In this document: in pieces, positions 1 through 24,005 of the stretch | How positions within the stretch are numbered: the stretch's first letter is position 1 | Layout: each line of letters opens with the position of its first letter | Origin: a virus | Strand: one strand, 5' to 3' | Virus record (IMG/VR): IMGVR_UViG_3300027712_000133 | Coordinates: 1-25,623 of that record | DNA length: 25,623 nucleotides | Position numbers and translations under genes: made by a program | The notes under the pieces: model-generated | What the model was told of the DNA's origin: nothing | The model's input: only the letters and a program-made list of their open reading frames with translations | Databases searched by the model: none

Positions 1-3000
1 CATTTTTATATGAAGATTTGATTTTGTAACCGCACTTGATTTTGCGTTAATGAAATCAGTAAGACCAGATGCATCTGAAAAAGCACCTGCTTTATTAAAT
101 CCTTTAAATGCTCTGATAAGTAATTCAGGAAGTGTACCTATCTCTCCATAATACGCCCTTCCATAACGTTTACTAAAATATGCTTTGATTGGTTTTGTAG
201 TATCTCCCTTCTCTAAAAATTCAAAAGCTTTTTTATTTCCATTGAATTTATTAAATACTCCATCCATATTGGCAAGACTTCCATTAACCAAATAGTTATT
301 CATCATATCTATAGCAGCTATTCCGTCTTTTATACTTAACCTACTTGGATCTATAGATGTAAAATTAGATAGCGTATTACTATCTTCCTCTGATAATTTA
401 ACTTCTTCACCAGTAAATGGATCTATTTTATTTTCATTTATGTGATCTATAATTCCTTTAAATCTATCAAAAGCATTACCAATTCCCTTCCTTACTAAAG
501 CTTGTTTTTCTGAATTAATTTCACTTACCTTACCTTCTCCTATTACCTTTTTTATTTGTTCATATGTATATTCAGATGAGTCAATGCCAGTAAGTTCTTC
601 AAACTGCGCTCTTTTATTTTGTTCATCCTCCTTACTTTGTTTAGATATCTGTTCGTTAACATAGTCCATTGCTTGTTTTGTGTCAACTACATCAACTACT
701 TTAATACCACCTTTTATAACCTTGCTACCACCAAGCGAAGCATGTATACTTGTAGCCATTTCATTGTACGCATCTATATCATCTACTCTTGAAGGATCTA
801 TTTCAGAGAATTGTTTTCCCAACTCTCTTAGCATAGGGTCTTTAGATTTATCGTTACTGAATTTCTTTATTAGCTTTAAAGATTTACTAGCAGTTCCTAG
901 CTTAGCATCATAGTCGTGATCAGCAAAAACCTTTTCAATATGAGCTTTAAATTTACTTACATGTTCTGGATTCTCAACGTTCAATGCATTTAATTTATTA
1001 ATCAAAGATTCTGTTTGATTAGCTGTGAAGTTACCACTCTTTACGCTTTCTTTTATATGTGTGGCGATATCATTCTTAACTTCTTTTATTTTTGTAAATC
1101 GTTCTTTATGTGTTCTACCTAAAGTTTTTAAAGCTTCGATACCAGCATTGAAAACATCTGTTACTTGATTAGATAAGTCTTTAACTTTTCCTTTTAGTTC
1201 CTTCTCTAAATTAGCTCTCTTTTCGTTTAGCTTATCTCTTTGTTCTTTAAGAGCTTGTTTTTTTAATAAACTATCTGCCTCTTTTGTTGCTGAAACAATA
1301 TCTGCAATTTGTTTTTTAACATCATTAAGTTCTTCTCTTAAATCCTTCTCTTTTTTAGATGGTCCTTTTGGAGCTTCTGCATAGTCTTTAGAAGTTTCAA
1401 GAGTTGGTTTTATAGCTTCTTCTGTCGGTTTAGTTTCTTCTGTTACTTTAGTTGGTTTTCCTAATAAATCTTCTACTGCTTTTACTAATTCAGGATTGCT
1501 TCCATCTATTTTAGCTTTATGATACGCTTCAGCAACATCAGACCTATATATATAGTCAGGCATAAATTTAACTGAGAAATCATAAAACGCTTCTTCATCT
1601 ACTATTCTTAAAGCCTCAGTTGTGGAATCTACATCTTTTAATGGATTTTCTTTAACTTCTTCTGTAGGTTTTACTTCTTTTTCAGGTGCAGTAACTTGTT
1701 CTTTTGCTGCTTCACTATCAACTTTTTCCTCCTCTACTTTTGCTTTAGCTTTCTGTTCTTCTCCCCAGTCTTTAGTCGCCTGGTCAATCACTTCTTTGTC
1801 GGTTATTTCTACTCCTTTTTCTTTTTGCTCATCAGTTAATTTTTTACTTAACTCATCCATTGCAACACGTTTTCTTTGCTCCATATCTGGAAGCACTTCG
1901 ATAACTGATGTTTGTCCAGTAAGTATATTCAACCTTGCTTTTTCAGTTTCTTTATACTCAATCTCTTTGGAGCGCAACATTTCTTTAACAAGCTCTGGAG
2001 AGTGTTTGCTTGCATTTGTTTTTATAATCAAAGCCTCTACTCTAAGTTTTGAAGCTTTATCGGTATGTTCTATAATTTTTGCAACTAATTCATCTGGTAG
2101 TTTTGATAAGTCACCTAATTTATCTGTAATTATTTTATGACTATCATTGGAAACTCTATCTATATGCGATCTTATTAAAGCTGATTCTTCAGGACTCAAA
2201 TCCTGGTTTTTTAAAGACTCATTTGCATCAATTATTAACTTTGCATTATCTCTTAAAACATTATATTCTTTAGTGTCGTAAAATGGCTTAGTAGCTGCTC
2301 CAATTATGTGTGGCGCATACGCATTCATTGCGTGTAGTATAGGAGCTGTTTTATATACTCCAGTATCTAAAAGTTGCTTATAGTCAATATCTTTTCCAAG
2401 ACCAAAATGCTTCACTCCTTGTTGAAGTATCTCCATTACCTTAAGTTCATTTCCTAATTTGAAACTTCCTTTTAAATTATCTTTTATAAATTCAGCTGCT
2501 TTTCTTCTGAACCCTTCTTTAACCAATGATGGACTTTCAGCCATAGCAGCCTCTATAGCCCTAGCTGAGTTTTTAACTGTATTTAATTGAGTTAACATTG
2601 GGGCTACTGTAGTTGCTCCATACATTAATGGAACTAGCATTTTTTGAGCTTGACTAGCTTTAATACCAGTTCTTTTTTCTTCTTCAATTATATCTCCGTA
2701 TTCATCTCCTCCAGTTGTAATAGCCATTGCAGCAACTCCGCCACCTCCAGTAGCCATAAGACCAGCCGTCATAAGAGTATTATCCGCAACAATATCTGTT
2801 ACTCCATGTATATAATCGACTACACTATGTGACTCCAATGTTTTTCTTAAATGCTTGCTATATTCATCAGATGCTTTTCTAATTACTTGAGCTTTTTCGT
2901 GTAGTTCTTTTGCAGCTCCTCCAAAACTCTCTAGATCAGCTCCCCATGCTAATGCATCAGCAGCTCCAGCAGTTAGTCTTATAGCTGAATTTATTATGTG

Positions 3001-4230
3001 GTTTTCAAAATCTAAAAAATGATTTCCTTCCGTCTGAAAAACATCGAATTCTTGTTTAAAAGTACCAAGATCTTCTTTATTTTTATTGAATTTATTATAA
3101 GAGTCGCTAAGATTATCTTGAGAATCCATAAAATCTTGCTTAGACCTTTTATAATCAGCAATCATTTCTTCAGATATTGCGCCTCCATTCTTTTGCAAGT
3201 CTAATAAGTCTTTCTCTTTCTTAGAAAAAACATCATATGATTGTTGTCTTAATGAATTTAGAAGCGGAAGTGATTTTATTATACCTTGATTTTCTGTATC
3301 TAGGTGTTTATAACTTTCCTCTGCATGTGTAGAAAGAGCCATTTGTTCTTTGTCTGATAAAGAGCTATTAACTGAGTTTAATCTACTCTGAACCAATCCT
3401 ATCTTTTTATCTTTTAAATATAAATCCTTTACTCTAGAATCTTTTTCTTCTTGAGTTAAAGTTTCTTTATTTTTTACAGCGTCACTTATTACCTCATCTT
3501 CAAATTTCTTCAAAGGCTTATCTACCTTCATTTTCAAAGATTTTTGATCTTCTGGATGAATATCAGCTATCTGAGAAACCACTCCAGATATTTTATTTAC
3601 ACCGATAGCAAAACCCTCTTTTATTCCTTGCCAAAGACCACCTCCTCTTTTGTCAGTATCGTAATCATCTTCAAAAGATTTTTGATCTTCTTCGGTTAAT
3701 GTTGTGGCTTGTTTAACTAATGGCAATACAGCTCCGAGTTCTTTTTGCTTCTTTAGATTTAAAAAGTAGTTTGACTCAACAGGTTTAGCTTCCTTCATTT
3801 TCTTTAAATCAGGAGTAGTAAATCCAGTATCTATCTTAGGGAAACCAGATGGTTGTTCTGCTACCTGTTTATTAGCTTTTCCACTTGAAGTAGCCGATGC
3901 CTGTGCTGGTATTTGTTGATCTGTAACCAAAGAATCGTATACACTTCTCGGTTGAGATTTTGAATCCCACGCTTGATTGATTGCAGAAGAATCCAATTTT
4001 GATTGAGAAGGTTCTTTTTTTTTTAATGGAGCTTCTACTACTAATGATTTATAGTCATTTATATTTCCGTTATACCCATCTTTTTTAAATAAATCATATG
4101 AATAATTTAATGCATTACTATCCTTTGATATTAAATCCTTAAATGAATTTACATCTCCATCATACCCATCTTTTTTAAATAATTCATGTGCATAATTTAA
4201 AGCTTTTGGATCTATTTGTAATTCAGCCAT
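1..4230 (-). CDS. Giant virion/DNA-ejection protein, partial (left end cut)
   Basis: An open frame of 1410 codons starts at ATG 4230 and shows no stop in the lines I read through to base 1, so the gene continues beyond the window. The protein opens with two copies of a 25-residue motif (residues 10-34 and 40-64, each ALNY..xLFKKDGYxG). A Ser/Lys/Gln-rich stretch follows, then long charged helical segments likely to form coiled coils. Around residues 480-500 there is a Gly/Ala/Met-rich hydrophobic patch (LMATGGGGVAAMAI), a candidate membrane-interacting segment. The C-terminal half seen here is Lys/Glu-rich, with a PTEEVK-type linker. It is the last gene after the nozzle, GNAT-fold, gp14-like and 497-aa genes, the place held by T7 gp16, which enters the cell and helps pull DNA in. 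I see no lytic transglycosylase motif at the N-terminus, where T7 gp16 has one. The role as cargo/ejection protein is inference from size, position and composition. Confidence 0.8.
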   Translation of the reverse strand, partial: MAELQIDPKALNYAHELFKKDGYDGDVNSFKDLISKDSNALNYSYDLFKKDGYNGNINDYKSLVVEAPLKKKEPSQSKLDSSAINQAWDSKSQPRSVYDSLVTDQQIPAQASATSSGKANKQVAEQPSGFPKIDTGFTTPDLKKMKEAKPVESNYFLNLKKQKELGAVLPLVKQATTLTEEDQKSFEDDYDTDKRGGGLWQGIKEGFAIGVNKISGVVSQIADIHPEDQKSLKMKVDKPLKKFEDEVISDAVKNKETLTQEEKDSRVKDLYLKDKKIGLVQSRLNSVNSSLSDKEQMALSTHAEESYKHLDTENQGIIKSLPLLNSLRQQSYDVFSKKEKDLLDLQKNGGAISEEMIADYKRSKQDFMDSQDNLSDSYNKFNKNKEDLGTFKQEFDVFQTEGNHFLDFENHIINSAIRLTAGAADALAWGADLESFGGAAKELHEKAQVIRKASDEYSKHLRKTLESHSVVDYIHGVTDIVADNTLMTAGLMATGGGGVAAMAITTGGDEYGDIIEEEKRTGIKASQAQKMLVPLMYGATTVAPMLTQLNTVKNSARAIEAAMAESPSLVKEGFRRKAAEFIKDNLKGSFKLGNELKVMEILQQGVKHFGLGKDIDYKQLLDTGVYKTAPILHAMNAYAPHIIGAATKPFYDTKEYNVLRDNAKLIIDANESLKNQDLSPEESALIRSHIDRVSNDSHKIITDKLGDLSKLPDELVAKIIEHTDKASKLRVEALIIKTNASKHSPELVKEMLRSKEIEYKETEKARLNILTGQTSVIEVLPDMEQRKRVAMDELSKKLTDEQKEKGVEITDKEVIDQATKDWGEEQKAKAKVEEEKVDSEAAKEQVTAPEKEVKPTEEVKENPLKDVDSTTEALRIVDEEAFYDFSVKFMPDYIYRSDVAEAYHKAKIDGSNPELVKAVEDLLGKPTKVTEETKPTEEAIKPTLETSKDYAEAPKGPSKKEKDLREELNDVKKQIADIVSATKEADSLLKKQALKEQRDKLNEKRANLEKELKGKVKDLSNQVTDVFNAGIEALKTLGRTHKERFTKIKEVKNDIATHIKESVKSGNFTANQTESLINKLNALNVENPEHVSKFKAHIEKVFADHDYDAKLGTASKSLKLIKKFSNDKSKDPMLRELGKQFSEIDPSRVDDIDAYNEMATSIHASLGGSKVIKGGIKVVDVVDTKQAMDYVNEQISKQSKEDEQNKRAQFEELTGIDSSEYTYEQIKKVIGEGKVSEINSEKQALVRKGIGNAFDRFKGIIDHINENKIDPFTGEEVKLSEEDSNTLSNFTSIDPSRLSIKDGIAAIDMMNNYLVNGSLANMDGVFNKFNGNKKAFEFLEKGDTTKPIKAYFSKRYGRAYYGEIGTLPELLIRAFKGFNKAGAFSDASGLTDFINAKSSAVTKSNLHIKM
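4039..4203 (-). repeat. Two-copy 90-bp-spaced repeat encoding LFKKDGY motifs
   Basis: Residues 10-34 and 40-64 of the giant protein are near copies (ALNYAHELFKKDGYDGD and ALNYSYDLFKKDGYNGN). The DNA is also alike: the stretch containing tacccatcttttttaaata recurs 80 bp apart at about 4075 and 4155. Short helical repeats of this lfk..GY.G type occur at the ends of other large Bacteroidota phage proteins, from memory. They probably form a small binding or packaging module. Confidence 0.75.
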
Positions 4231-4242
4231 TTTATTTTTTTA

Positions 4243-5736
4243 TTATTTAGGTTTATTAAATCTAGCAGCAGATGTAACTTTTTCGGTATTTGTAGTACCT
4301 GTTTTGGCAGGTTTAAACTTATTTAGTCCTTGAGATTTATCAACAGCATCCATCCATTTACTCAGCTCCCCAATACTTGCATTTTCTATAGTATGTCTTT
4401 CTCCTTTTTTATCAGTATATCTAGCACCTATATACGATTGCGCTAATCTAAAAAAGTCATCTGAATTATGATCACTTCCTGCATATAATTTATTCTCTCC
4501 TTTAGTTGTTTTAGAGTAGGTAGCTCCATTTGTTTTAGCACCTTCTGTCTCCGATGCAGAAGAAGCTGTTGACGCATATAGCTCTCCAGTTTTATTATTT
4601 CTCAAAAGAGTCACTGCTTGTTTTGTTCCAGTATCGTCTTTTCCATAAAGAGTATTTTGTGCAGAATATCCAGTTATGACAGTTCCTTTTTCTACCTTTT
4701 CAGTACCCCCATTTATTAAAGGTAATGTACTAGGTCTTAAATTAAATGCTCCAGAGAATCCCATGTTAGGAGGTGTTTTACCTTTTTTACCAGAACCAGA
4801 TCCGTCTCCTCCAGCTTTTGGAAGACTAGTCATTTTAAGTTCTTTATTATAAGAGTCGCTTATTATATTATTTGCATAATCATATAATTTCTTAGTCTGA
4901 TCTTCAGAGAAATTGTCTTTTTTTGGACCAACTTTTTTAGCTCCTTCTGGAAGCGAAGCTTCATATTGAGACCAAAGAGTTGCCTTAGTATCCCTATCAG
5001 ATATCCATGCACCAGCCTGATCCGCTATACTATCTTTTAAATGCTGATTTTGCTCTGTAGGAGTTACTATCATTCCTCCTTGTATTCTAGCTATTTCATC
5101 TTGCTTATGTGAAGCTTGAAATTTAGCTAAACTTCCTGCTAAATCAACTGTTTTCGGTATATCATAAACCTTATCTACAATCTCATTTATATTAGATGAA
5201 GAAACCTTACCGTCTTTTCCTTCGTAAGTAAACATCACTTCTCCATTAGGTTGGACTTGTGACTTTGTATTTTTTAGAAAATTACCTAAAGCATCAGGGT
5301 CTAAAAACTCTGTGTTTAATTTGTCGCGATTATCTTGAAGCCATTTTGATTTTTCTTGAATATACTTAGCTCCATTATTCATTATCTCAATAGCTTGATT
5401 AGCTTTTTCAGCATACTGATTTGCATATAAACTACTTACTTCTCCAGTACTAACTCCTTGTTGAAGATTATAAAGACCGTCTTTAAATTGAGATAGAGTA
5501 GATAATACTGGATCGTCATATTCATGTTTTCCAGAAGAAGTATAAGTTTTAATATCTTTTAACCTACTCATTTCTTCAGATATGCTTTTAGCCTTAGCAG
5601 CGGCTCTTTCCTGCTTTAACTTTTCTTGTAACGCTTGACCTTCTTGATACTTGTCAATATTACTAGAAATCATTTTTCCAAAATCAACTGGAGTTCCTTC
5701 TACCGTTGCGTATGTTCCTACATTTCCTATTGCCAT
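4243..5736 (-). CDS. Putative internal virion / ejection protein (T7 gp15 position)
   Basis: A 497-residue protein with no signal peptide or membrane helix. Residues about 20-65 and 100-145 are charged, Gln/Lys/Glu-rich helices. Residues about 308-323 are a Gly/Ser/Lys linker (AGGDGSGSGKKGK), and the C-terminal third is Thr/Ser/Lys-rich with many small polar residues. It starts 2 bp after the 204-aa gene and ends 12 bp before the giant gene, so the three are surely co-transcribed. I do not recognise a named domain. The position between a gp14-like and a gp16-like protein is that of T7 gp15, which forms part of the internal core and the periplasmic tube. At 497 residues it is shorter than T7 gp15 (about 747). 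The function is inferred from order only. Confidence 0.6.
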   Translation of the reverse strand: MAIGNVGTYATVEGTPVDFGKMISSNIDKYQEGQALQEKLKQERAAAKAKSISEEMSRLKDIKTYTSSGKHEYDDPVLSTLSQFKDGLYNLQQGVSTGEVSSLYANQYAEKANQAIEIMNNGAKYIQEKSKWLQDNRDKLNTEFLDPDALGNFLKNTKSQVQPNGEVMFTYEGKDGKVSSSNINEIVDKVYDIPKTVDLAGSLAKFQASHKQDEIARIQGGMIVTPTEQNQHLKDSIADQAGAWISDRDTKATLWSQYEASLPEGAKKVGPKKDNFSEDQTKKLYDYANNIISDSYNKELKMTSLPKAGGDGSGSGKKGKTPPNMGFSGAFNLRPSTLPLINGGTEKVEKGTVITGYSAQNTLYGKDDTGTKQAVTLLRNNKTGELYASTASSASETEGAKTNGATYSKTTKGENKLYAGSDHNSDDFFRLAQSYIGARYTDKKGERHTIENASIGELSKWMDAVDKSQGLNKFKPAKTGTTNTEKVTSAARFNKPK

Positions 5737-5738
5737 GA

Positions 5739-6353
5739 TTATCCTATTTTTGGTGGAGTATAGTTCATTTTTATTAAATTGCTATTTTGTAACTGTTCCG
5801 TAGTCATTCCTCCTCCTCCAGTATATCCATCTGCACTTTTTGCTGTAGCACCGCTACTTAAAGAACTTGCTGCGGACATTCCAGCCTGAGCAACTCCTCC
5901 AATACCAGCCCACATTTGCTGATTACCTTGACTAATTTGAGAGCTAAGTCCAGCTTTATCAGCGACAAATCTATTCTCTTTAATACCCATTATACTCATG
6001 TCAGCCTGAGCTTTTTGAGATTGTATATCTTTCTGTTGTTTATCTAAATCCGCTGCAATTTGTTGATTCTGTAAATTGCTCTGAGCCTGGACTCTACCAA
6101 CACCTCCAACTAAACCTCTTGCCCCAGCTCCTTGTAACGCTTCAATATCAGAAGCTTGTCCTCTTGCCGATTCTTCTCTTTGCAGGTCAGCCCCTAAAGT
6201 AGATACTTGCGCATTCGCATAAGGATTTACTGTTTCTGGAACTTTAAGATTTTTAAGCGCATTAGCTGCGCTCTTAGCTTGTTGCGCCCCTGCAACTGCT
6301 TGACTAGCCGCAGCTACACCTCCTATAATTGCCATTGTTGTTGCTACTCCCAT
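5739..6353 (-). CDS. T7 gp14-like internal virion / ejection pore protein
   Basis: A 204-residue protein rich in Ala, Gly, Gln and Ser. Residues 1-35 form a Gly/Ala-rich hydrophobic helix ending in a Gln/Lys/Ala stretch (AIIGGVAAASQAVAGAQQAK). Residues 55-125 are Gln-rich and probably helical. Residues 148-172 are a second small-residue segment (WAGIGGVAQAGMSAASSLSS). This is the build of T7 gp14 (about 196 residues), which has an N-terminal Ala/Gly helix followed by Gln/Ala/Lys and a C-terminal GSSAASAYASG-type segment, and which forms the outer-membrane part of the ejection channel. The ATG at 6353 lies inside the 3' end of the 137-aa gene (10 bp overlap), indicating translational coupling. 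The assignment rests on composition, length and order, not on a database hit. Confidence 0.65.
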   Translation of the reverse strand: MGVATTMAIIGGVAAASQAVAGAQQAKSAANALKNLKVPETVNPYANAQVSTLGADLQREESARGQASDIEALQGAGARGLVGGVGRVQAQSNLQNQQIAADLDKQQKDIQSQKAQADMSIMGIKENRFVADKAGLSSQISQGNQQMWAGIGGVAQAGMSAASSLSSGATAKSADGYTGGGGMTTEQLQNSNLIKMNYTPPKIG

Positions 6354-6757
6354 ATACTTTTTATCATTTCAGTTGTGTTACTACCTCCTTGTACAAAACC
6401 ACATTTCAAATACTTGTTCATAAGATTTTGGTTCTTTAAAGAGGAATATATTACGTTTCTATTATTTTCTTTTGCTAAATAAGATAGGTCGTTTATTAAT
6501 TTAACTAAGCTATCTTCTCTAATTTTTTTATCCTTAACGTCAGGATTACTTACTATAAATTCTATCCAGGATATTGGACTGTTTGTGTAGTATAAGAAAC
6601 CAGCACAAATAAGAGTCTGTGTTTCACTATCAACAATCATAATACCTGATAATCCATTGTCTGGTAAAATCTCTCTTGTAGGAGGACAAAACCTCCAGAA
6701 TTTCCACCAATCAACTAGCGTGTCGTAATCGTCTGTATTTAACCATCTGCTTTCCAT
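6344..6757 (-). CDS. GNAT-fold protein, T7 gp13 (DUF2833)-like
   Basis: A 137-residue protein with the outline of a GCN5-related acetyltransferase. The N-terminal helix region is DYDTLVDWWKFWRF, followed by a CPP..ILPDNGLSG turn (residues 24-38). Strands lie at 39-43, 49-56 and 62-69, a long helix at 80-97, and the closing N..MNKYLKCGF element at 110-121 is typical of the family. The acetyl-CoA loop (usually R/QxxGxG/A before the long helix) reads DVKDKKIRED at 73-82 and has no glycines, so catalysis is doubtful. T7 gp13 is a 138-residue protein, in a Pfam family of the acetyltransferase clan from memory, encoded just before gp14. This gene sits just before the gp14-like gene and overlaps it. 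A TAnnTTTG promoter element ends 5 bp upstream of the ATG. Fold assignment is fairly sure; role as a morphogenesis factor is inferred. Confidence 0.7.
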   Translation of the reverse strand: MESRWLNTDDYDTLVDWWKFWRFCPPTREILPDNGLSGIMIVDSETQTLICAGFLYYTNSPISWIEFIVSNPDVKDKKIREDSLVKLINDLSYLAKENNRNVIYSSLKNQNLMNKYLKCGFVQGGSNTTEMIKSIWE

Positions 6758-13174: not shown

Positions 13175-13816
13175 ATGGGATACGTTTATAGACATATTAG
13201 ATTAGACAATGGATATCCTTTCTATATAGGGATTAGCAATAGTTGTGATGGTAAATATAAGAGAGCTAATGCTAGAGCAAAGAGAAATAATCTTTGGGGT
13301 AAAATAGTAGCTAAGACCAATTATGAAGTTGAAATATTATTTGAACATGATGATTATGAATTTATAAAAGAGAAAGAAAAAGAATTTATATCGTTGTATG
13401 GTAGAATAAATACCAAGACTGGGATATTATCTAATTTAACTGATGGTGGTGAAGGAACTATAGGTTGGATACCAACTAAAGAGCAAAGAGATAATCAGAG
13501 TAATAGAATGAAAGGAGATAAACATCCTCAGTTTGGTATTAAACATTCAGAAGAAAGAAACTTAAATAATAGTTTAGGTCAGTTAAATTTAAATAAAACC
13601 AATAAAGCATTATCTGATATGAATAAAAAGAATAAAGGTGCTTTAAATCCAGCATCTAAAAAGGTGGTTAATACTATTACTAAAGAAATATTTAATTCTG
13701 TAAAAGAAGCATCTTTATCAGTTGGATATTCTTCACCATATTTGAGTGAAATGTTAAGTGGAAAATACAAAAATAAAACAAACTTAATATATTACATAAA
13801 AAAAGAGGAGTGTTAA
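13175..13816 (+). CDS. GIY-YIG homing endonuclease with NUMOD DNA-binding motifs
   Basis: A 213-residue free-standing homing nuclease, the only plus-strand gene. The GIY-YIG catalytic domain is at residues 1-80: GYVY (2-5), FYIG (16-19), a basic helix with RAKRNN (34-39) and an acidic helix with KEKEKEFI (65-72). A NUMOD3-type motif follows (GDKHPQFGIKHSEE, 114-127). The C-terminal NUMOD1-type helix-turn-helix is at about 161-200 (VNTITKEIFNSVKEAS, then GYSSPYLSEML). Such enzymes cut a specific site in an empty allele and spread by repair copying. The gene sits between the capsid and 248-aa genes, and its last codons form part of a hairpin that serves as terminator for the capsid mRNA. Its own promoter is unclear; a near match, TATCTTTA, lies at 13143-13150. 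Catalytic residues look intact as far as I can see. Confidence 0.88.
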   Translation: MGYVYRHIRLDNGYPFYIGISNSCDGKYKRANARAKRNNLWGKIVAKTNYEVEILFEHDDYEFIKEKEKEFISLYGRINTKTGILSNLTDGGEGTIGWIPTKEQRDNQSNRMKGDKHPQFGIKHSEERNLNNSLGQLNLNKTNKALSDMNKKNKGALNPASKKVVNTITKEIFNSVKEASLSVGYSSPYLSEMLSGKYKNKTNLIYYIKKEEC

Positions 13817-18817: not shown

Positions 18818-21442
18818 CTATGCGTATTTGTGTAAATTTATAGTTATCGGTTCTACTTGTATTTGAGGTCTATATGAGTTTCTGCTTATTGCCATTAAAG
18901 CCAATCCAGAACTAATACCTAAATCATATGACCCTCTATTTCTAATATCAAACTCAAGCCAATCCTGTAATGTTCTATTGTAAGACATACATCCAATTTC
19001 TTGAGTATCATTATTCATTCCAACATATTTATTTATATAACTTTCTATAGCTGACGAGTGCATTTGAATAACATCCTCTGACGAGTTTGGAATACCGCCT
19101 ATCTCTCTTTCGGTAGAAGATAATCTGTTAGCTGCTTTATCAAATCTAGTAATTGCAAAGTTACGATAACCTCTGTTCTTAAAATGGTATAGTATTCTCG
19201 GTTTATTATTCTCAATTAAAATTGGCATACCATAGAAAACACAAGCCATTAGGACATCTTCAAAGAAAATTTCTGACGTTTGAGTTCTTGCAACATACTC
19301 TAAAAAAAATGAATTTGATGGCGCATTGCTTAATGTAAAATTAGTAACACCACTCAAAGCACCTTTAGATCCTCCAGAATTATTATTATCTTTTAAACTC
19401 TTTTTACTCTTTCCGTCAACAACCCCTGAGATATCATACGGATCACATCCAAAAGCTCCAATATTTTCGTTTAGCGGAGACCAGGAGTGTCCTCCCCATC
19501 CAGGTTTCATCTCTTTATTATTCTGCATGTTGTTATCAGGTATCCAATTTATTAAAAACTTACCCTTTCTATTAGGTGTCCAAATAACTTTTGAATCTAT
19601 GATACCATCTTTCCAGGAAAAGTCTCCTTGAACTAAAGTCTTCTCTATATCGCTATTTAAATTATATGCTATCTGATCATTTATTTTATCAATATTAAAC
19701 AATGCATTATCTAATTCATCTCTAAAAGCTTCATCTATAGTCATTGGAAATGCTCTTAACTCATCATTGTAAGCTACATCACTTTCCTTTCTTTTTGCTA
19801 ATCTCTTGGCTTCTAAGTATTTAATCGATCCTATTATTTTTTTAACTCCTTGAACGTTTATAAAGAACCCTCCTTTTTCAACTATCTCATGACATACTCC
19901 ATACTTATCTGTATACTCAGCCATGTTTTTTTGAGCTGGTAAGAAATAAGCATACAATCCACTAGGAGTTCTATTAGTTATTGAATCTCTTTTTTTAATT
20001 AAAGATTGATAATATAATCTTCTAAATTCATACCCACCATCCTTTATAGCGGCAACTGTAGATCCTACAAAAGCTTTACCAACAATAGTACCCCCTTCAT
20101 CCATAGTTGGAGAAACTTGACCCCAGTGTTTTTCAAAGCTTCTACCTTTTGTCCATTTAGATGCCTCATCGGCAAGATATCTAAACATCTTCTGACCATC
20201 ATATGACCCTTCGTTTGTAGGCTGATAATCAATCTTGGTATTTAAATAGTCATCTGTCTGAGTGTCTCTTTTCTTCTTAGCATCTTTAGACATATTTGAA
20301 GGCTTGGCAAATTCAATAAATACTTTTGAATCCTCCTTACCTCTAACTACAGGTCTAAAAAAGAACGGTAGATTTAAGTAAGCATAACTAAATTTAGAGA
20401 ATGCCTTTTTAGCATCTTCATCTGATTTAGATGTAATACCAAAGTTGGCATTGTTATTTGAAGTAGCTTCTTCTACAAATCTACAAACCTTTTCATAAGT
20501 ATATCCAGTACGTCTTGACTTAACAAAAAATTCACCTATGCATCTATCATCTATAACGCAAGCTTCAGTATGATAAAACATATCTAGCTGAGCATATCTG
20601 AAATTCATGTATCCACCGCTATCTTCCATCTTGCACCATTGTAATGCAAAATAATGATTACCAGTTAAATATATATAATCTCCATTATTCATAAACCAAA
20701 CACCTTCTCTCCTTCTTCTGAATTCCTCTAATATAAATTCAGTATAGGCGTCTACGCTATCTACACTAAGACCAGGATGTAATGGGGTTCTTCTCCAGAA
20801 CTGGTTTTCCTTCTTGTCTTTACTAAATAATATATCTTTTTTATTTTTAGGAATCTCTGGTAGAAATATATTAAGACCGTCTAAAGAAATCATTTTTCCT
20901 TTAGTTCCTTTTGGGTCTAATACAATAGCATCTTCTTTTTCATCATACCAATTCTTATGGTAATGAGATTTTGGATAAAATTCTCCCTTACTATATTTCT
21001 CTGGGAAACCAACCTTAAACTCCCTATCAGATAAGTTAAAATTCTCACTTGATATTTGAAGTCTTAATTCTATAAGGGAAGAATCTATCTCTACAATAGC
21101 TGTATGAATAGATGCTTTTGCCTTAATAGCTAAATGGTGTTTAGTTGGATCTATAGAACCGTAGTCTATTTTGTCACGTAAAGCCGATCTAAGCGTGATT
21201 GAGGAACTATCTCCAGCATTGACTAGTCTTTGTACATAGGTTTTTAATTTAGTCTCATTTGGGCTATTTTGATTGTTTTGCCATCTAAGAATCATTTGTT
21301 TTGCTGACCTAAAACTTTCAATCTTAGATTTCATTGCAGCATCAAACTTATCAGCTGTAATTTCAGATATGTCTATCTCATATTCAAGCCCTTCTATTAT
21401 ACTGTCAATCGCAAACTCTATGTCATTTGACAGTCCTAACAT
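18818..21442 (-). CDS. terL: Terminase large subunit
   Basis: An 874-residue packaging motor subunit. The ATPase domain shows a variant Walker A loop, KSRRTGYT (308-315), in which the usual Lys before Thr is replaced by Tyr. A Walker B element with catalytic acid, YLADEAS, is at 422-428, and a coupling motif, FVGST, at 458-462. The C-terminal nuclease half has the acidic GCDPYD (665-670) and the later ILIENN (741-746), as in RNase H-like headful nucleases. An unusual N-terminal extension of about 200 residues precedes the motor. The ATG overlaps the end of the 177-aa gene by 7 bp. It pumps DNA into the prohead with the portal. No small terminase gene was found in the window. Confidence 0.87.
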   Translation of the reverse strand: MLGLSNDIEFAIDSIIEGLEYEIDISEITADKFDAAMKSKIESFRSAKQMILRWQNNQNSPNETKLKTYVQRLVNAGDSSSITLRSALRDKIDYGSIDPTKHHLAIKAKASIHTAIVEIDSSLIELRLQISSENFNLSDREFKVGFPEKYSKGEFYPKSHYHKNWYDEKEDAIVLDPKGTKGKMISLDGLNIFLPEIPKNKKDILFSKDKKENQFWRRTPLHPGLSVDSVDAYTEFILEEFRRRREGVWFMNNGDYIYLTGNHYFALQWCKMEDSGGYMNFRYAQLDMFYHTEACVIDDRCIGEFFVKSRRTGYTYEKVCRFVEEATSNNNANFGITSKSDEDAKKAFSKFSYAYLNLPFFFRPVVRGKEDSKVFIEFAKPSNMSKDAKKKRDTQTDDYLNTKIDYQPTNEGSYDGQKMFRYLADEASKWTKGRSFEKHWGQVSPTMDEGGTIVGKAFVGSTVAAIKDGGYEFRRLYYQSLIKKRDSITNRTPSGLYAYFLPAQKNMAEYTDKYGVCHEIVEKGGFFINVQGVKKIIGSIKYLEAKRLAKRKESDVAYNDELRAFPMTIDEAFRDELDNALFNIDKINDQIAYNLNSDIEKTLVQGDFSWKDGIIDSKVIWTPNRKGKFLINWIPDNNMQNNKEMKPGWGGHSWSPLNENIGAFGCDPYDISGVVDGKSKKSLKDNNNSGGSKGALSGVTNFTLSNAPSNSFFLEYVARTQTSEIFFEDVLMACVFYGMPILIENNKPRILYHFKNRGYRNFAITRFDKAANRLSSTEREIGGIPNSSEDVIQMHSSAIESYINKYVGMNNDTQEIGCMSYNRTLQDWLEFDIRNRGSYDLGISSGLALMAISRNSYRPQIQVEPITINLHKYA

Positions 21443-21969
21443 GTAGCTACTATTTGGTTACTCCTAACTCTGTATAATCTTTCATCATAAAAATTAAATT
21501 CATAATTACTATAATCTTTAAGTACTACTCTATCTCCAACTTTTATTCCATTTTCCTCTGTAAATTTATTTCCATAAACCACCGTTGCAATGTTTGGAAC
21601 ATCTGCTCCTTCTTCGACTAATGGCTCAACAAATAAGAATGGATCTAAACTAATCTTTTCTCCACTAGGTTTTATTACCATATAAACCATTTCTGGATAG
21701 ACGAAATATAAATTGTCACTTATATAATTATTGGAATGTACTGGAAGACCTTGCTGATTAAATGTAATTCTAAATGTGTTATGATGTAATATAATTTCGT
21801 CTCCTATATTGACAACAGTCTTAAATACTTCTGGAACAGCATGAACTACTCCGATTCTATTTACATCCTTAGCTTCCTCTATAGAAGTATTCTTTACAAA
21901 ATAGTTATTGCTATTAACGTATTGAGAATCCCCTTTTGGTTTTACTATAAAAAATATTGGTGATTTCAT
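21436..21969 (-). CDS. Tandem GroES/Cpn10-like (gp31-type) co-chaperonin candidate
   Basis: A 177-residue protein made of two similar halves. Half one has an early strand FFIVKPKG (6-13), then IGVVHAVPE (39-47), VNIGDEIILHHNTF (53-66) and a closing NLYFVYPEMVYMVI (86-99). Half two has FLFVEPL (111-117), NIATVVYG (126-133), IKVGDRVVLKDYSNYEF (142-158) and a closing RLYRVRSNQIVA (164-175). The second half resembles the C-terminal part of GroES (G.V..VG...VKVGD.V.F.....S.ILA). T4 gp31 shows that phages encode such co-chaperonins to fold their capsid protein in GroEL. It lies just before terminase, within the head operon, where a capsid-folding helper would fit. The two-domain fold in one chain is unusual. 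A purely structural role is the main alternative. Confidence 0.5.
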   Translation of the reverse strand: MKSPIFFIVKPKGDSQYVNSNNYFVKNTSIEEAKDVNRIGVVHAVPEVFKTVVNIGDEIILHHNTFRITFNQQGLPVHSNNYISDNLYFVYPEMVYMVIKPSGEKISLDPFLFVEPLVEEGADVPNIATVVYGNKFTEENGIKVGDRVVLKDYSNYEFNFYDERLYRVRSNQIVATC

Positions 21970-22563: not shown

Positions 22564-23525
22564 TATGCTTTTGTATTTCCAAGTAAGTAGTATACATTAC
22601 TAGTTCCTTCTTGTTCTAAAGCAGCTTGATACCATTGTCCTTTTATTTTAAATCCAATTGAATTACGAAATGTAGTTCCAGATGATAAAAAACTAACATC
22701 AGCAGTTCCGTTTTGAATAAAACCAACAAAAAAATTATTACTTAACCCAGAAGGTACGGTTATGTTTATTGCAGTTGAATTATTATTTATTACTATTACA
22801 TAATTATTATCTGCCTGAGTTAAAGTGTACGATGCAGTTATTGTTTTCTGTAGATTATTTGTGTCTACAGGTATTGCTGGTTTATTTAAAATCTGTGATA
22901 CTCCACCATTAGAAGCCCAATCAGAATTAACTTGGGCAGAAGGGATAGTTGGTTTATTTAAAATTTGAGAAACACCGCTCACAGAACTCCAGTCGGAATT
23001 TACTTGTGGAGTAACTGTAGGTATGGTTGGCTTGTTTAAAATCTGAGACACTCCGCTAGAAGAATTCCAATCAGAATTAACTTGAGGTGTTACAGTTGGT
23101 TTGTTTAAAATCTGAGAAGCACCAGTAGTAGAATTCCAATCAGAATTAACTTGAGGATCTTTTAATAAAATAAAATCAGACGAAATTAATGGAGCTTGAT
23201 CTAATCCAACTATTACATCTTGTTTTTTTAATAAATATTTAGTGCCATTAATATTCACAACAACTACATCATATTGCAATATTGTAATATTAGGGTCTAA
23301 ACTATTTAAATAAGCATACGGAGTAGTATATGTGGATCCAATATAACTTAATTCACGAATATTTAAAGTGCCTCCAATTATAGGGTCAAACCCTGCCTTT
23401 AGGAATTTTAATATATTTCCCATGGAATAATTTCTTGTCCCATTTAAAGATTCAGCATCGCTTCCAAGCACTGTATCATATTCAGATACAATACCGTCAT
23501 TTGCATATGTTTGTATTCTAGCCAT
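22563..23525 (-). CDS. Tail fibre protein with QVNSDW repeats
   Basis: A 320-residue fibre protein. Residues 1-45 form an N-terminal segment (ARIQTYANDGIVSEYDTVLG) of the type that attaches a fibre to the tail, seen at the start of other Bacteroidota phage fibres. Residues 125-217 hold four copies of a QVNSDW...GxSQILNKP motif (at 125, 148, 174 and 198). The C-terminus from 225 is a beta-rich tip (TVPSGLSNNFFVGFIQNG) that resembles generic trimeric fibre ends. The motif spaces along a trimeric shaft. Spacing of 23-26 residues differs between copies by short Thr/Val/Ile-Pro linkers. It may bind the host surface with the 122-aa protein. Confidence 0.75.
   Translation of the reverse strand: MARIQTYANDGIVSEYDTVLGSDAESLNGTRNYSMGNILKFLKAGFDPIIGGTLNIRELSYIGSTYTTPYAYLNSLDPNITILQYDVVVVNINGTKYLLKKQDVIVGLDQAPLISSDFILLKDPQVNSDWNSTTGASQILNKPTVTPQVNSDWNSSSGVSQILNKPTIPTVTPQVNSDWSSVSGVSQILNKPTIPSAQVNSDWASNGGVSQILNKPAIPVDTNNLQKTITASYTLTQADNNYVIVINNNSTAINITVPSGLSNNFFVGFIQNGTADVSFLSSGTTFRNSIGFKIKGQWYQAALEQEGTSNVYYLLGNTKA
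22875..23153 (-). repeat. Four tandem repeats coding QVNSDW-ILNKP
   Basis: Four direct repeats of about 69-78 bp in the fibre gene. Each contains ttaaaatctg/ttaaaatttg and ctgattgg-like blocks on the reverse strand. Protein copies differ at only a few sites, so the set probably expands or contracts by recombination. Confidence 0.85.
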
Positions 23526-23537
23526 TTTATTTTATTT

Positions 23538-24005
23538 TTATTTTGATAAGATAGCAGAAATAACTGCTGTATTTTTTTTAATATACAAGAACATAAGTAA
23601 TAAAGCTATAGTTGCAATAACTACAATACCAATAATAATATATATAATCCAAGTAGAATTAAACTTCTCTGTTTTTGCAGATTCTTTTTCCTTTATGTTT
23701 TTTTGATACTCTATATTTTGACGAGTCAATTCTTCTATTCTACTAGCATAACAATCTACACTACTTACATTTCCTTGTTTATCATAAACTGTTTGTATAG
23801 TAGTTCCTTGTCTATTGGCTTTATATATTACAGTGTCTTTAAAGGATATTTTTGGTATTTCAAAATGAACCGTATCTCCAGCTCTAAAAGTTTTAACTTC
23901 TGTGTTCTCTTTGTAGTTAGAATTATCTTTTATCTTTCCAGATATTTTCTGTATATCACAAGATGTTAAAAACAATAAAGCCAGAGATACAATTAAATAC
24001 TTCAT
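23538..24005 (-). CDS. Lipoprotein with C-terminal membrane helix, u-spanin candidate
   Basis: A 155-residue protein. Residues 1-16 are a lipoprotein signal, MKYLIVSLALLFLTSC, with lipobox L-T-S-C and Cys16 as the lipidated residue. Residues 17-85 are a beta-rich periplasmic part. Residues 88-115 form a charged helix (RIEELTRQNIEYQKNIKEKE), and residues 119-142 a hydrophobic transmembrane helix. The order outer-membrane lipid anchor, periplasmic linker, coiled helix, inner-membrane helix is that of unimolecular spanins such as T1 gp11, which fuse the two membranes at lysis. The residue after the Cys is Asp, which would retain a lipoprotein in the inner membrane in Escherichia coli; Bacteroidota follow different sorting rules. 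Its start overlaps the stop of the 54-aa gene. No holin or endolysin lies alongside, so a structural or host-modifying lipoprotein is possible. Confidence 0.55.
   Translation of the reverse strand: MKYLIVSLALLFLTSCDIQKISGKIKDNSNYKENTEVKTFRAGDTVHFEIPKISFKDTVIYKANRQGTTIQTVYDKQGNVSSVDCYASRIEELTRQNIEYQKNIKEKESAKTEKFNSTWIIYIIIGIVVIATIALLLMFLYIKKNTAVISAILSK

Follow-up and report, generated by a model that had tools for sequence, protein, structure and literature searches.

In phage T7, gp14 is the first protein to leave the particle and ends up in the outer membrane, and the counterparts of gp15 in other phages are matched in reviews mainly by position and size (PMC8954989). In the Crassvirales phage crAss001, cargo proteins are stored in the head and in the tail (PMC10172136), and in cobaviruses a GNAT gene near the internal virion proteins B and D has been equated with T7 gp13 (PMC6775973); the idea that a GNAT gene beside internal proteins represents gp13 is, for that group, already published. 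The window analysed here, the whole 25,623-base fragment of one IMG/VR virus record (IMGVR_UViG_3300027712_000133), contains a comparable locus, in which a gene for a tail nozzle, or muzzle, of 1166 amino acids (aa) is followed by four open reading frames, all on the minus strand, encoding a 137-aa protein, a 204-aa protein, a 497-aa protein and a giant protein. A first-pass annotation had proposed a T7-like gp13-gp14-gp15-gp16 ejection cassette here, and all four frames lie at the positions it gave. Our analysis indicates that the region is probably an ejection cassette for internal proteins, whose cargo would leave through the muzzle and serve as pore, conduit and effector, with the GNAT-fold protein as an accessory part.

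The TerL of the window is 63% identical to that of Flavobacterium elemo phages and can be recognised in 87 records of phages, whose names, with a single exception, refer to a host genus among the flavobacteria (Flavobacterium, Cellulophaga, Tenacibaculum or Maribacter); the window is a fragment of a Pachyviridae/Elemovirus-type podovirus whose nearest known relatives infect flavobacteria. Among these relatives, Cellulophaga phage phi40:1 has the note 'experimental MS/MS' (tandem mass spectrometry) on all five homologues, namely gp097 (muzzle), gp098 (the 137-aa protein), gp099 (the 204-aa protein), gp100 (the ~500-aa protein) and gp101 (the giant), and the same note stands on phi18:3 gp114 (muzzle), gp115, gp120 (204-aa), gp121 (~500-aa) and gp123 (giant); this status is taken from the depositors' notes in records of relatives, rather than from spectra or from the phage of the window itself. 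The profile of the 137-aa family also matches phi38:1 gp98, a protein of identical length (E-value 3.7e-16). These annotated homologues in phi40:1 give good support to an ejection cassette located inside the virion.

The order of capsid-region genes, ring proteins, muzzle, 137-aa, 204-aa, ~500-aa and giant genes was retained in ~85 IMG/VR loci gathered with the 137-aa protein as anchor, usually with the 137- and 204-aa genes only a few bases apart, as well as in all cultured relatives examined. From nozzle to giant the order recurs in ~100 related loci overall, so the T7-like arrangement originally claimed for the window is not a chance one. Because this first set had been selected by the 137-aa gene, a second was gathered through the ring protein (by a search with an alignment of 5 sequences) and counted over the 23 loci extending at least 2.5 kb beyond the muzzle. 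The 204-aa family was present in 23/23 of these and the 137-aa family in 14/23, so the GNAT gene is optional and the 204-aa gene universal across cassettes. Where the 137-aa gene is missing, the 204-aa gene directly follows the muzzle or an unrelated protein of ~160-180 aa fills the slot; the slot-filling proteins (L195, 15579-16061; L227, 8137-8652; L230, 16205-16744) look cupin-like by eye. The same on/off pattern is seen on the T7 side, with a gp13-position gene in T7, P-SSP7, Syn5 and HTVC019P and none in phiKMV and SP6, whose gp14-like gene comes directly after the nozzle. When present, the 137-aa gene sits directly between the nozzle and the gp14-like gene, as T7 gp13 does.

The AlphaFold model of the 137-aa protein, built with 36 homologues, shows the usual GNAT order of strands and helices at high confidence (predicted local distance difference test, pLDDT, 96.0; predicted template-modelling score 0.90). 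Foldseek returned GNAT structures in the PDB at E-values of ~1e-5 and viral predictions at 1.8e-12, and comparison by VIA gave Z scores of 14-16 against GNATs (maximum 16.3) over ~130 residues. The GNAT fold anticipated for this protein is thus borne out, and the outcome that would have spoken against it, a prediction with no such fold, did not occur.

T7 gp13 and gp14 were then compared with a panel of ~20 flavophage families by profile-profile alignment, in which gp13 ranked the 137-aa family first and gp14 ranked the 204-aa family first. With broader profiles, gp13 and the 137-aa family aligned collinearly over 120 columns (score 31.8 against a shuffle maximum of 20.6; HHalign probability 45%), and the shorter alignment of gp14 with the 204-aa family spanned 49 columns (score 22.9 against a shuffle maximum of 18.3; HHalign probability 3%), with 0/200 column-shuffled profiles scoring as high in either case. 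The two small proteins of cobavirus SIO1 likewise ranked these two families first, at an HHalign probability of 68% for the cobavirus GNAT against the 137-aa family and of 6% for the 144-aa protein against the 204-aa family. Part of the gp13 signal comes from membership of the shared GNAT superfamily. Taken as profile evidence, these rankings are suggestive of very distant homology of the 137- and 204-aa proteins to T7 gp13 and gp14.

Several observations weigh against a T7-type ejection cassette. Both HHalign probabilities obtained with the T7 proteins lie below confident thresholds; the GNAT superfamily is huge, and a common fold is no proof of descent from gp13; and the 497-aa protein and the giant have no detectable similarity to gp15 and gp16. 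The AlphaFold model of the 204-aa protein (43 homologues) reached a pLDDT of only 66.6 with no match in the PDB, leaving the gp14 question undecidable from it, and the link through the cobavirus 144-aa profile is weak, as it scores 23.2 against the 204-aa profile and 22.8 against the same profile reversed. Furthermore, gp116 of phi18:3, the 137-aa homologue, has no MS/MS note. The missing gp15/gp16 match does not tell strongly against the T7 reading, because in single-sequence comparison the accepted counterparts in Syn5, P-SSP7 and phiKMV likewise have no detectable match to T7 gp14-16. The deep conservation with T7 put forward in the first-pass annotation holds as a common architecture, with the set a probable analogue of T7's; homology is suggestive only for gp13 and gp14, and was not recovered for gp15 and gp16.

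The explanation that competes most closely, which we place just short of an even chance, is that the likeness arose by analogy and not by descent: podoviruses infecting diderm hosts would repeatedly put a small hydrophobic, a mid-size and a giant protein after the nozzle, since the order of late operons follows assembly, and the GNAT would have been recruited independently. It agrees with the lack of any significant pairwise or Pfam match (PF11090, PF24072), with the low HHalign probabilities, with a GNAT slot that may be empty or differently filled, and with the arrangement muzzle-cargo-cargo-RNA polymerase without a GNAT in crAss001, and with the crAss-related phage lineage (PMC9855967). It is less easily reconciled with the right family out of ~20 coming first for T7 gp13, for T7 gp14 and for both cobavirus proteins, or with the collinear gp13 alignment; moreover, the dissimilarity to T7 gp14-16 is no greater than that of accepted T7-like phages.

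The 204-aa protein consists to 50% of Gly, Ala, Gln and Ser and has one strong N-terminal hydrophobic segment of small residues (aa 3-21), a feature of 71/71 homologues in the flavophages and of 30/31 T7 gp14s. The universal presence of the family and this segment fit a role in pore formation, which the 23/23 conservation suggests would be essential, and by analogy with gp14 the protein is most likely the outer-membrane pore protein and the first to be ejected. It has no match to PF24072 at E≤0.1, where T7 gp14 itself scores 160.1 bits. Two further resemblances were dropped: a Met-Cys start, found in 30/36 T7-side proteins and in 3/71 flavophage homologues (all from related phages), and the gp14-like motif ALRxxGxxRxxIG, which proved too rare (16/103 flavophage and 2/31 T7-like proteins).

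The muzzle of the window contains the Pfam domain crAss_MUZ_C (PF25729) at aa 974-1044 (40.9 bits against a cut-off of 27), and structure comparisons have put Pachyviridae and Pervagoviridae beside Crassvirales (PMC9855967); on both counts, the virion backbone, in tail and capsid alike, is related to crAss-type phages and not to T7. In the window the C-terminal part of the muzzle (aa 930-1166) is fused, and it is a gene of its own in most relatives, such as gp115 of phi18:3. This setting raises the alternative that the cassette corresponds to the Crassvirales cargo proteins C1 (gp45) and C2 (gp46) instead of T7 gp14-gp16, which we consider unlikely. Besides the adjoining crAss-type muzzle domain, it draws on the crAss001 order of muzzle, gp45, gp46 and giant and on the best match of gp45, which is the 204-aa family (score 25.4, HHalign 3%), beside the predicted transmembrane helix of gp45 (PMC10172136). 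Against it, none of the cassette proteins matched PF25725 or PF25712, to which crAss001 gp45 and gp46 themselves score 222 and 729 bits, gp46 compared with the ~500-aa families stayed at the HHalign background, and no RNA-polymerase domain was found in the giants scanned; the likeness to gp45/gp46 was rejected, as profile comparison gave nothing convincing.

For the 137-aa protein, the P-loop that binds the acetyl-CoA pyrophosphate, [RQ]xxGx[GA], was found in 0/75 distinct sequences of the family and in 10/30 T7-side gp13s. With the motif missing from all 75, a non-catalytic role is the more likely one, and the protein is most likely an assembly or accessory protein, by analogy with T7 gp13. 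At E≤0.1 it had no match to PF11090, to which T7 gp13 itself scores 160.8 bits, and a sequence search of the PDB with the 137- and 204-aa profiles gave nothing useful. Only in Gundel_1 (L006) and phi19:3 (L007) does the GNAT gene run counter to the structural genes on either side of it. The least probable alternative puts the protein outside the ejection set, as an enzymatically active acetyltransferase, effector or moron, that is injected or expressed to modify host proteins: the optional gene, the strand reversal in those two phages, the GNAT domains of some polyvalent proteins, which are thought to be injected together with phage DNA (PMC5512222), and of one relative's giant, and the unflagged phi18:3 homologue would suit it, but the canonical acetyl-CoA motif is missing throughout, the phi40:1 homologue is a virion protein, and slot and strand are constant in nearly all loci.

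The contig end truncates the giant of the window; complete giants in relatives measure 1,439-3,694 aa, beyond the 1318 aa of T7 gp16. Neither the giant of the window nor those scanned from relatives yielded an SLT lysozyme domain, whereas the SLT of T7 gp16 scores 108.6 bits. Among 19 giants scanned, that of L040 has a kinase (Kinase-PolyVal) and LPD38, that of L062 a PBECR3 nuclease, and others ART-PolyVal, ddrB-ParB or GNAT; a tRNA methyltransferase-like part occurs in the giant of Panino (L004) and DUF3293 in that of an elemo phage (L005). The GNAT domain in a relative's giant is weak, and Gundel_1 is listed among the phages with domain-bearing giants. Polyvalent domains are frequent in the giants of relatives and set them apart from T7 gp16, but none was recognised over the 1409 aa of the giant that the window covers. 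Given the absence of SLT, the length of up to 3,694 aa and the polyvalent domains, the label of ejected effector carrier therefore suits the giant better than that of a gp16. Of the T7 interpretation, the virion location of the set has support from the MS/MS notes of phi40:1; a detectable relation to gp15 and gp16 and an SLT domain in the giant have none.

Two tandem N-terminal copies of a short sequence were detected in 49/59 distinct giants (P≤1/60); none of six control families given the same test exceeded 1 in 17-30. The window giant has DPKALNYAHELFKKDGYDGDVNSFKDLI and DSNALNYSYDLFKKDGYNGNINDYKSLV, after which comes PLKKKE; in other phages the doubled sequences are mutually unrelated (PPSDAV, LPSPEEVLG, IKPVIVADDGIN, DEFGIP and KYPEY), and DEFGIP occurs twice in the MS/MS-annotated gp101 of phi40:1. 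There are always two copies, doubled within each phage, and the type varies among phages, one being a 28-aa two-helix-like unit; a KKKE/KKKD linker usually follows, and repeats are also present in L026, L032, L040, L144, L171 and others. The pattern was not clearly seen in T7 gp16, SIO1 gp26, P-SSP7 gp16 or crAss001 gp45-gp50. We tentatively raise the possibility that the start of the giant is an exchangeable address tag in two copies, which might act as a docking code for packing or ejection and be swapped as a unit.

The ~500-aa proteins of 68 loci share a conserved N-terminal pattern that closes with (V/I)D(W/F), with a fast-diverging remainder, which suggests an N-terminal docking segment. 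A scan of IMG/VR with the 497-aa protein itself found no relatives because the protein diverges fast. By analogy, it is most likely the periplasmic-conduit protein.

From T7 and crAss001 we infer how such a cassette might work. The 204-aa, 497-aa and giant proteins would be packed in the virion and expelled via the muzzle ahead of the DNA; the helical 204-aa protein would leave first and make a pore in the outer membrane, the 497-aa protein would lengthen the conduit across the periplasm, and the giant would cross into the cell, where in many relatives it may deliver effector enzyme domains. The 137-aa protein would occupy an optional slot as a non-catalytic part in assembly or an accessory function. 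The features of the cassette are collected in Table 1.

Table 1. Cassette genes and twin repeat of the giant in the window
Feature	Position	Strand	Evidence
Tail nozzle/muzzle, 1166 aa	6777..10277	-	phrog_14478, E 6.5e-208; PF25729
GNAT-fold protein, 137 aa, gp13-like slot	6344..6757	-	AlphaFold, Foldseek, VIA; homologue phi40:1 gp098
Gly/Ala/Gln-rich helical protein, 204 aa, gp14-like slot	5739..6353	-	phrog_13764 'virion structural protein', E 1e-27
497-aa protein, gp15-like slot	4243..5736	-	Virion-protein homologues gp121/gp100; N-terminal pattern
Giant protein, 1410 codons, open at contig end, gp16-like slot	1..4230	-	Homologues gp123/gp101
Giant N-terminal twin repeat, copy 1, aa 7-34	4129..4212	-	Self-alignment score 102, 0/60 shuffles
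Giant N-terminal twin repeat, copy 2, aa 37-64, then KKKE linker	4039..4122	-	DNA copies 63/84 identical

Elsewhere in the window, a GIY-YIG/NUMOD homing-endonuclease-like frame is inserted amid the structural genes (13175-13816, plus strand; phrog_314, E 8e-17), and a gene for a GroES-like co-chaperonin (Cpn10; 21436-21969, minus strand), which the elemo phages have too, overlaps the large terminase gene at its start. A 44-bp candidate cassette repeat at 23500-23543 was rejected as merely an A-rich leader with similar first codons.

The four genes, listed publicly as structural or hypothetical in flavophages, gain function-level names by this analysis, and a crAss-related lineage is seen to use the layout of nozzle, GNAT, small pore protein, conduit and giant known from T7 and cobaviruses. 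The contrast between the universal 204-aa gene and the optional GNAT slot makes an old puzzle, the role of T7 gp13, testable with phages that have or lack the GNAT gene, and the cultured relatives phi40:1, phi18:3 and the elemo phages open the cassette to experiment.

Compared with T7, the locus is alike in the order after the nozzle, in the size of two of the four proteins (137 versus 138 aa and 204 versus 196 aa), in a GNAT-like first protein, in a second protein that is rich in small residues and N-terminally hydrophobic, and in internal virion location; it differs in having no significant sequence match, in the missing SLT lysozyme of gp16 and in counterparts of gp15 and gp16 that are unlike in sequence and size. 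Only two sizes had been claimed to match, and the 747 aa of gp15 against 497 aa here agree with that. Virion proteomics of the T7-like phage phiPsa17 detected gp14-16 and did not list gp13 (PMC4517105), in contrast to the GNAT homologue noted for phi40:1 virions. The cobavirus SIO1, a Roseobacter phage, has the order nozzle, GNAT, small Ala-rich protein of 144 aa and giant, but its 564-aa protein comes after the giant and its proteins resemble the window families only weakly. The phage crAss001 shares the C-terminal muzzle domain and has its gp45/gp46 cargo directly after the gp44 muzzle; it lacks a GNAT gene, and its RNA polymerase (gp47/49/50) has no equivalent found in flavophage giants. 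The relatives' giants resemble polyvalent proteins through Kinase-PolyVal, ART-PolyVal, PBECR3, ddrB-ParB, LPD38 or GNAT domains (PMC5512222). The closest systems are flavophages whose annotation goes no further than structural or hypothetical proteins for these genes; in many of them the C-terminal part of the muzzle is separate, and giant length and enzyme domains differ from the window. Cellulophaga phages phi40:1 and phi38:1 (Pervagoviridae) and phi18:3, phi46:3 and phi19:3 (Pachyviridae), the Flavobacterium elemo phages, Maribacter phage Panino and Tenacibaculum phage Gundel_1 all have the gene families of the window in the same order.

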